DNA of 21,717 bases, from IMG/VR virus record IMGVR_UViG_3300037493_002029, positions 1 through 21,717 of that record; one strand, given 5' to 3'. Origin of the DNA: a virus. Shown here piece by piece: positions 16,433 through 17,828 of this stretch; position 1 is the stretch's first letter, and each line of letters opens with the position of its first letter. A program made the position numbers and the translations under genes. Under the pieces are notes generated by a model. That model was given only the letters and a program-made list of their open reading frames with translations, was not told the DNA's origin and ran no database searches.

Positions 16433-16630
16433 ATGAAAACCGCCTGCACGTTTCAATTCCAGGATGAACCGCAATTCCGCGCATTTGAAAGTAGAGAGTA
16501 TCTTGCGAACCTTCTACGCGCCTGGAAACGGCAACCCGACAAGTACATTCTTACCCGCAAGGGAACCGGCCTGTATTCCTGCCAGAACCGCTATAACGGA
16601 TCGCCGGTCGCGCTGGTAACGACGCGATGA
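16433..16630 (+). CDS. 65-residue protein, unknown
   Basis: A small basic protein: MKTACTFQFQDEPQFRAFES, followed by LANLLRAWKRQPDKYILTRK and a short beta-type end. GGGG is about six bases before the ATG. Its TGA overlaps the ATG of the next tiny gene (ATGA at 16627-16630). It belongs to the ardC island. No family recognised. Confidence 0.6.
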   Translation: MKTACTFQFQDEPQFRAFESREYLANLLRAWKRQPDKYILTRKGTGLYSCQNRYNGSPVALVTTR

Positions 16631-16734
16631 ACAACGCCCCTAACCGCTACCCGATCCGCCCACAATCCTCCGGCCTGATCCGCGCGATGCTTTTCGGCGC
16701 TCTCTGTGGATATTTCCTCGCGCTTGCGATATAG
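16627..16734 (+). CDS. 35-residue possible single-pass membrane peptide
   Basis: A 35-codon frame coupled to the previous gene by an ATGA overlap. After a short polar basic N-terminus (NNAPNRYPIRPQSSGLIR) it ends in one hydrophobic segment (AMLFGALCGYFLALAI) that could span the membrane. It is the last gene before the terminator at 16783. Very short genes of this type exist in phages; function unknown. Confidence 0.5.
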   Translation: MNNAPNRYPIRPQSSGLIRAMLFGALCGYFLALAI

Positions 16735-16782
16735 TTAATCCCCATCGGCGCATCCTCCCGCGCCTTTCGCCCCTCAGTGATT

Positions 16783-16800
16783 AGCCCTGGGGGGCTTTTT
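16783..16800 (+). terminator. intrinsic terminator of the accessory island
   Basis: AGCCC and GGGCT form a five-base-pair stem around a TGGG loop, followed by TTTTT, then C and further T-rich bases. It ends the rightward ardC island 48 bases after the last small gene. Confidence 0.75.
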
Positions 16801-16810
16801 CTTTCCTTCA

Positions 16811-17382
16811 TGGGGTTGGCGCTCAGGAATTTTGATCTTCCAAGCTAACCATCTGCTGTTTAAAACGGAGGATGGTTGACCTACCTGAATCCATTTTCAA
16901 TCCTGAATTGCTTAGGGTCGTTTTGGGGAGACATCCGTTAATGGGGTGGCGCTGTAGGGTTTCCTAGACTCAAAGAGTCTCCAATGGTGGATAGGATGCC
17001 TACCCTGCCAACTCCGAGACTAGGATATGAAACAACCTAGTCCCCAAGTCACCTTTGAGGCAGCTATTTATCGACTATGGCGTTGGTAGTTCCACCGTTT
17101 TGCGCCATAACTTGTGTAGTCCCTAGCTGACAGGCTACGAGGGGCCAGAGATGGTGTCACTCTACCCTGTCTTTCTGAGGTTTAGCCCGATTCAAGGCTA
17201 TCCTTGCCTAACGCTGCATCCTCACGCGGTCGGCAAAGAAAAACCCCGAAAGACTCTTGGAGGGGCTGGCCCTTGGCTGGACAATGGTCGGCACGGGAAA
17301 GCGCGATTAGACCACTACACAGCCCCTTCAAGAATGTTCCGGGGTTCTGCTTTCCGTGCCGGTTGCCATACCGACGCCAACA
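16811..17382 (+). ncRNA. candidate large structured phage RNA (about 570 nt)
   Basis: No credible gene lies in 16801-17399, but complementary segments are dense and nested. GTTGGCG (16815-16821) pairs exactly with CGCCAAC (17375-17381), closing the region. Inside: TTGGGG 16923-16928 with CCCCAA 17042-17047; TGGC plus AGGGT (16947-16950, 16956-16960) with ACCCTGCCA (17002-17010); hairpins AGACTC/GAGTCT (16966-16980, AAA loop), GACTAGG/CCTAGTC (17018-17042), TATGGCG/CGCCATA (17076-17109), TAGC/GCTA (17124-17137), CAAGG/CCTTG (17193-17206); and two long stems in 17242-17369. A-rich loops and several G-U pairs favour the plus strand. Size and phage setting recall the GOLLD and ROOL RNA classes, but I cannot assign it to either. 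No promoter is obvious. Confidence 0.5.
17242..17369 (+). repeat. two interleaved long inverted repeats (alternative stems)
   Basis: Stem A joins 17242-17268 with 17320-17346: of 27 positions, 23 are Watson-Crick and one is G-U. Stem B joins 17284-17302 with 17349-17369: ATGG/CCAT, TCGGCACGG/CCGTGCCGG and AAAGC/GCTTT, 18 pairs with one 1-base and one 3-base bulge. The order of arms is A, B, A', B', so they form either a pseudoknot or, since only two bases join A' and B', two exclusive conformations. Confidence 0.7.
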
Positions 17383-17390
17383 GATTACCA

Positions 17391-17404
17391 ACTAACCGGT
17401 TAGT
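17391..17404. repeat. 14-base palindrome at convergent gene end
   Basis: ACTAACCGGTTAGT is a perfect palindrome that contains the stop codon of the NinG gene (17400-17402) and lies 10 bases after the closing stem of the putative RNA. It could be a weak bidirectional hairpin or a protein binding site between converging transcripts. Confidence 0.6.
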
Positions 17405-17828
17405 CTGTCAACTCTTTTAATGCTGCCGAATAATATTCTATGGCCTCAAGAGCTAATTCCCTGACTTCCGATCCTCTCAAGACCTTCCTGCTGTCGGCTT
17501 TGATTTCCTCAATTCCTTCCCTCCCATAGCGATCAAGCTGGAATAGGGTGTATTCCCTGCTATGAGTTTCAGGGCGATAGCAGTTACACGCCGCACAGCC
17601 TGGCATCAAATTTCTTTCGTCCCACCTGACCGACTTAGCTGATCTTCCAATCCAATGACAGCAATGCGCTTTTGACCAGTGAAGTATGGTTTCACAAGAA
17701 ACGCACTTCACCATCCCGTTTTCGTCGGCGTACTTTAGTCTGACGCACTGAGAGGCCAGCTTGTCAGCTTTCGCTATCAGACTCGGTAAAGGGGTCTGCT
17801 TAGGGCGCTTCTTTTTCTTTGGGATCAT
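17400..17828 (-). CDS. ninG: NinG/Rap-like recombination endonuclease
   Basis: A 142-residue protein. After a lysine-rich start (IPKKKKRPKQ) comes a helix, then KCVSC (C42, C45), SKAHCCHWIGRSAKSVRWDE with H55 and H58, and NLMPGCAACN (C78, C81, N82), which is the zinc-binding HNH-like pattern of lambda NinG (Rap), a structure-specific nuclease that resolves branched recombination intermediates. It is shorter at the N-terminus than lambda NinG and lacks the first Cys-rich segment. The ATG overlaps the previous stop (ATGA at 17825-17828). It is the last gene of the early operon. Confidence 0.85.
   Translation of the reverse strand: MIPKKKKRPKQTPLPSLIAKADKLASQCVRLKYADENGMVKCVSCETILHWSKAHCCHWIGRSAKSVRWDERNLMPGCAACNCYRPETHSREYTLFQLDRYGREGIEEIKADSRKVLRGSEVRELALEAIEYYSAALKELTD

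Follow-up and report, generated by a model that had tools for sequence, protein, structure and literature searches.

What occupies the gap between the plus-strand genes and ninG in this viral DNA? In the stretch analysed here (record IMGVR_UViG_3300037493_002029; 21,717 nucleotides, referred to as a whole as the window), the called genes of the plus strand end at 16630 and the minus-strand gene ninG ends at 17400. A sequence-only reading had proposed that this region lacks a credible gene and encodes a large structured phage RNA, related to GOLLD and ROOL or representing a new class. The first part of this proposal was borne out, since no credible gene was found within 16630-17400 and no plus-strand frame is open across the whole gap.

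Folding of the gap on both strands

Compared to dinucleotide-shuffled controls, the interval 16811-17382 showed a pronounced folding signal on either strand (z -3.46 on plus and -4.46 on minus), and none of 120 shuffles equalled the real sequence, as had been anticipated for a structured RNA. The signal is unevenly distributed: minus-strand 17231-17382 alone folds very strongly (z -5.34), 17048-17230 folded alone remains at chance level, and homologues were therefore needed. The homology-defined RNA as a whole (17377-16980) yielded z -4.42 on the minus and -2.51 on the plus strand. Both the evolutionary signal and the stronger fold reside on the minus strand and not on the plus strand that had been implied before. 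The borders required correction as well, because 16811-16979 gave z values of only -0.49 and -0.64 on the two strands and has no homologue among the loci fetched.

Of the helices suggested previously, the 7-base match between 16815-16821 and 17375-17381 is present in the sequence, but its role as a closing stem is unsupported: about 10 complementary 7-mers are expected by chance in 600 nt (600^2/2/4^7), and on the minus strand its 3' arm lies beyond the conserved RNA while its 5' arm spans the predicted transcription start. Likewise, the direct repeat exists (16804 and 16934 in register), but competition of its second copy for this stem found no support. The segment 17042-17047, assigned to a domain stem with 16923-16928, instead pairs with approximately 17013-17018 in a conserved helix, and one arm of the bulged helix 16947-16960/17002-17010 falls beyond the conserved RNA. 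The strongest elements, the inverted repeat S1 and the helix S2 crossing it (Table 1), had not been named.

Homologues, architecture and covariation

Neither blastn of 16801-17399 against phages and plasmids, which returned ninG matches only, nor a plain-sequence search of the loci retrieved through their terL, ninG, ArdC-like and primosomal proteins detected an RNA homologue. Scanning IMG/VR with back-translated peptides from an arbitrary open frame across the stretch retrieved four near-identical phage contigs (L246-L249), of which only 43-50 bp are alignable to the window and which share its minus-strand architecture with different stem sequences. In this architecture S1 begins with AACCCCG, the 5' strand of S2 precedes S1, the 3' strand of S2 lies in the S1 loop, and the U-tract UUUUUCUUU follows. 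A structure descriptor applied to all loci scored 59.6 for the window, 68.6 for L246 and 63.4 for L134, a locus missed by plain sequence, compared to a best score of 40.0 in the control, which was one first-order Markov set equal in size. L246 and L134 are among the loci that share the S1 helix. Further pseudoknots followed by a terminator-like tail were observed in L203 (3884-3978), L207 (1840-1934), L220 (4158-4255), L166 (4955-5030) and L083 (7120-7217); with descriptor scores above or near the control maximum, they may be further 5' domain types.

A DNA pattern built from the window, L246 and L134, consisting of GCCAAGRGCCA, a gap and GGGGTTTTT, matched at least 119 viral stretches in IMG/VR, nearly all of which carry the S1/S2 pseudoknot. 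Since homology runs on past the U-tract, the RNA must be larger than this 5' domain, and a pseudoknotted terminator as the whole element was dropped from consideration. L295, L332 and L469 align over most of 17377-16980, and a 3' domain, B, is common to the window, L332, L295 and L360 behind the U-tract. The 17-mer GCCTGTYAGCKAGGGAC of the B domain was also found in at least 119 viral stretches of IMG/VR, attached to several kinds of 5' domain, with scarcely any overlap between the stretches listed for the two patterns. The U-tract accompanies several other 5' domain types, and in 20 of the 78 loci tested B stands behind the commonest 5' type. A scan with a B pattern specific to the window gave no match, so that no close relative was available for testing the tail 16811-16979.

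Table 1. Features of the RNA encoded on the minus strand of the window, in the predicted direction of transcription.
Feature	Position	Strand	Remarks
-35 TTGACA	17406-17411	-	inside last ninG codons; predicted promoter
-10 GGTAAT	17384-17389	-	spacer 16; 15 nt before TGGCA; weak -10
Whole RNA by homology	16980-17377	-	~400 nt, both ends inferred; z -4.42
5' hairpin CGGT-ATGGCA-ACCG	17360-17373	-	conserved TGGCA in loop; homologue consensus
S2 5' strand CGGCACGGAAAGC	17349-17361	-	hypervariable pseudoknot; complements 17289-17302; compensatory changes in homologues
S1 5' strand	17320-17346	-	inverted repeat I1; long helix (27 positions) with 17242-17268
S2 3' strand	17289-17302	-	within S1 loop; pairs with 17349-17361
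Conserved GCCAAGGGCCA motif	17267-17277	-	GCCAAGRGCCA pattern, at least 119 viral stretches
S1 3' strand	17242-17268	-	CGGGGTT at end; pairs with S1 5' strand
U-tract UUUUUCUUU	17235-17243	-	directly behind S1; terminator-like
3' domain B	16982-17218	-	several covarying helices and two pseudoknots
B helices by mutual information	17214-17212/17181-17179; 17198-17196/17187-17185; 17168-17165/17143-17140; 17138-17136/17118-17116; 17110-17104/17081-17075; 17049-17043 with 17015-17006	-	
Pseudoknot CAGCUA (17129-17124)/UAGCUG (17066-17061)	17061-17129	-	covariation
Long-range pairing GGUGG (17096-17092)/CCACC (16990-16986)	16986-17096	-	covariation

At their 5' ends the homologues display a TTGACA/TATAAT-like pair and, at the same distance as in the window, a hairpin whose loop contains TGGCA. 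A promoter-like score of at least 9 out of 12 was reached by 41 of 95 homologues compared to 43 of 475 shuffles, mostly 14-15 nt ahead of TGGCA; the pair in the window, which overlaps the end of ninG, sits at the commonest homologue distance. Transcription is thus predicted to start near 17377. The 3' end of the RNA yielded no intrinsic terminator. As the U-tract behind S1 resembles an intrinsic terminator, some transcripts may stop near 17235. On the opposite strand, a terminator-like hairpin with a T-run at 16783-16806 closes the plus-strand operon, which is thus convergent with the RNA gene; a suhB-like Rfam match (16733-16810, plus strand) overlaps this terminator and was rejected. In L391, where the RNA is on the minus strand, the terminator hairpin of the upstream operon is seemingly fused with the RNA promoter at 2332-2420 (TTGACCCAGC...GCTGGGTCTTTTTTTGTGTATACT), a fusion that gives rise to spurious small-RNA matches. 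Another locus, L004, contains tandem short repeats at 54-145 and 2520-2760, built of CTGACCTGC-like repeats and of a unit of greater length, CTGCTGGCCGTCCTGACC; the second of these arrays is situated within a predicted ATPase-like gene.

To characterize domain B, mutual information with average product correction (MI-APC) was computed on 79 dereplicated B domains, revealing the six helices listed in Table 1, the pseudoknot around 17129/17061 and the long-range pairing around 17092/16990. In 50 distinct sequences, the 37 pairs of this structure were formed in 95.2% of cells versus 71.7% after shuffling, with 422 versus 131.5 both-side changes and a covariation score of 0.617 versus 0.185, values that none of 500 shuffles matched but that are flattered because the structure scored was derived from the same homologues. 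Sliding the partners by one column reduced pairing to 37-39%. RNAalifold, as an independent prediction, returned 27 pairs, 22 of them showing double changes. The CAGCUA/UAGCUG pseudoknot was paired in 100% of cells in the 50 sequences; two of its pairs, among them the U-A of the window, show compensatory changes. GGUGG/CCACC was paired in 85.6% of cells, with both-side changes at one pair. Sequence changes among the homologues thus track base pairs, and the compensatory changes expected of a structured RNA do occur.

A covariance model of 49 sequences from which the window had been left out is clear of the structure-derivation bias; it detected 17172-17050 on the minus strand of the window with 76.9 bits (E 3.5e-19). 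The window is unpaired at some alignment positions, for instance in the first B helix, and it is therefore a divergent or partly misaligned member. The covariation that includes G-U pairs falls on the minus strand. In addition to its detection by the window-free B model, the window possesses S1 with the crossing S2, the GCCAAGRGCCA motif, the U-tract and the promoter-like pair at the conserved distance. Altogether, we are close to certain that the minus strand of the window encodes a member of this class of structured RNAs.

The hypervariable pseudoknot S2

Typically for this class, S2 is retained as a helix and exchanged as a sequence. At least 9 contiguous S2 pairs can form in 91 of 102 homologues, compared to 21% after swapping loops between homologues, and 92 distinct S2 5' strands occur in this set, which still includes a few chance genome matches. 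Within the commonest 5' type, the mean pairwise identity is 0.40 for S2, a value partly depressed by register shifts of S2, versus 0.87-0.89 for S1 and the conserved core. Among 60 pairs of RNAs, not independent of one another, that are at least 94% identical elsewhere (mean edit distance 0.026), the edit distance was 0.25 for S2, 0.03 for S1 and 0.08 for the first loop, i.e. S2 diverges about ten times as much as the rest of nearly identical RNAs. In 16 of these 60 pairs the S2 segment had changed by at least 40%, and in the examples inspected its partner was altered to match.

A guide function of S2, directed at the genome of the same phage, was rejected, since S2 matched the remainder of its own contig without a clear excess over chance (10.7 versus 7.4 hits per Mb; n=9 and 60). 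As S2 is replaced wholesale and the rest is near constant, its likeliest role would be that of a pairing code distinguishing self from non-self, operating either by intramolecular closure or by strand exchange in a homo-oligomer of identical molecules; such a code would stop RNAs of co-infecting phages from mixing. We put this step forward tentatively and regard it as rather improbable. Block recombination or relaxed sequence constraint, instead of selection for a code, could also account for the hypervariability. The phage phi29 pRNA, the product of a phage RNA gene of about 174 nt, contains complementary segments that covary between phages and pair between molecules. It served as a lead for the idea of an S2 code and differs from the RNA described here in size, fold and partner.

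Gene neighbourhoods, function and known relatives

The genes adjoining the RNA vary between phages. In the window the neighbour is ninG, L246 has a cro-like gene and a primosomal one, L134 has terL, and ParB-like, PAPS reductase, RusA and HNH genes occur elsewhere. Head-assembly genes and major head genes each adjoin the RNA in 12 of the loci sampled, in which the RNA showed no regular association with terminase genes. This variability favours a trans-acting RNA gene. By our main reading, to which we assign a probability of roughly 55%, minus-strand ~17377-16980, a member of a widespread class of noncoding phage RNAs with modular build, constitutes such a gene. The RNA would be transcribed from its own sigma-70-type promoter and act in trans as a folded molecule. 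During synthesis, the S2 5' strand would emerge first and, by pairing with the loop of S1, hold back formation of the S1 hairpin; polymerase could then pass the U-tract and finish the 3' domain.

The strongest alternative is a cis-acting leader, in which the promoter and the structured RNA control termination of the genes behind, by attenuation, by put-like antitermination or as the leader of a late operon. The terminator-like S1 and U-tract inside the RNA are in line with such a function, and 52 of 76 downstream ORFs, called heuristically, are on the strand of the RNA. Moreover, in a clade of 12 loci (L386, L393, L395, L404, L409, L411 and relatives) the RNA lies about 150 nt ahead of the major head gene, and in L246 and L324 it lies ahead of primosomal genes. 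Like HK022 put and the lambda PR'/6S leader, the RNA would head phage transcription units near a terminator, and its position between ninG and the late genes matches that of lambda PR'. However, 24 of the 76 downstream ORFs have the opposite orientation, as do the genes called behind the RNA in the window over more than 2 kb. In some members an additional promoter-like sequence separates the RNA from the next gene; in the head-gene clade this is a TTGACA/TATAAT-like promoter ahead of the head gene in members such as L386. HK022 put is a small two-hairpin element, whereas the RNA described here has two large domains in which pseudoknots or long-range pairings number three, far exceeding what known put elements need, and its neighbours vary; a leader function also leaves the S2 pattern unexplained. 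We consider a cis-acting leader a real, if minority, possibility.

A DNA element with RNA-like inverted repeats, such as a replication origin, a packaging or recombination site or a palindromic mobile element, would fit the inverted repeats and the intergenic location, but the many helices with compensatory changes, the pseudoknots, the promoter-like sequence in front and the better fold of one strand make it very unlikely. A plus-strand RNA spanning 16811-17382 with the closing stem and helices suggested at first is still less probable: its segments are complementary and the plus strand does fold beyond expectation, yet 16811-16979 lacks both fold signal and homologue, and the conserved promoter, the U-tract and the G-U-bearing covariation are all on the minus strand.

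GOLLD and ROOL RNAs usually lie close to tRNA genes and form homo-oligomeric RNA cages. The RNA described here shares with them that it is large, ornate, phage-borne and pseudoknotted, and that its 5' part is the more variable (cf. PMC12286853). Nevertheless, the chance that it is a distant member of either family is negligible, given that no gathering-score match occurred in the window or in 32 related loci and none at relaxed E-value on the stretch, that ARAGORN found no tRNA in the window (a partial genome), and that its ~400 nt are about half the size, compared to ~660 nt for ROOL env-120 and >800 nt for GOLLD (PMC12286853).

More generally, searching Rfam with the window at gathering score and with the stretch at E values up to 5 gave no credible match within the RNA. 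Among the 32 related loci, a single Rfam family was detected, RF02932 (Betaproteobacteria-1), matching L324 at 369-487 (91.2 bits), L251 at 1302-1417 (97.8 bits) and L266 at 2566-2684 (73 bits; gathering score 49.4). In all three loci the same 5' pseudoknot domain directly precedes the match, and we conclude that this 120-nt model is one exchangeable 3' domain of sister RNAs. Conserved-looking sequence was observed to run on past the 3' end of RF02932 in L324, L251 and L266, and the Betaproteobacteria-1 family apparently covers just one section of a longer RNA. No RF02932 match in the window reached 49.4 bits; the model leaves the B domain unmatched and takes in no part of the promoter, the 5' domain or the remaining types of 3' domain. 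The B domain of L391, a canonical B member, was also without a credible Rfam match. The proposal of a large structured phage RNA, or of a new class of such RNAs, was upheld by extensive covariation across many homologues, by the window-free model's recognition of the window and by the absence of an Rfam family matching its RNA.

In bacterial genomes no credible match was obtained, in searches that were sampled or used exact patterns, so that rare prophage copies could escape. A scan of genome contigs gave 13 matches, judged on inspection to be due to chance because they lacked the pseudoknot and the promoter context. The B model gave one weak match in 369 Pseudomonadota genomes (26.8 bits, E 7e-4 per genome), in line with chance, although the stricter filters used may lose weak matches, and RF02932 gave none in genomes in which the controls were silent as well. 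B-type RNAs were observed in two public Manatee Spring podovirus genomes, MW202484.1 (L498, 2501-2783) and MW202674.1 (L499, 2501-2691), where they underlie ORFs annotated as hypothetical proteins.

Apart from the RF02932 fragment in sister RNAs, this RNA class is undescribed in Rfam 15 and in the open literature searched, which covered few subscription papers. The family is new except for that fragment, and in kind it groups with the large orphan RNAs of phages. A trans-acting, multi-pseudoknot particle with exchangeable 5' and 3' domains and an S2 code that keeps self from non-self and prevents co-assembly would be a new RNA device, an outcome that we hold to be doubtful. An unexplained gap has thus led to a large, previously unrecognised family of structured phage RNAs, represented in more than 200 viral stretches over two scans (at least 119 in each), and the 120-nt Rfam orphan Betaproteobacteria-1 is shown to be an interchangeable piece of a larger RNA. 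Covariance models of the class could end the annotation of such RNAs as hypothetical proteins, as in the two public phage genomes. Finally, a helix that is swapped wholesale and stays complementary in RNAs otherwise near identical provides a testable clue to function, which is rare for large orphan RNAs.
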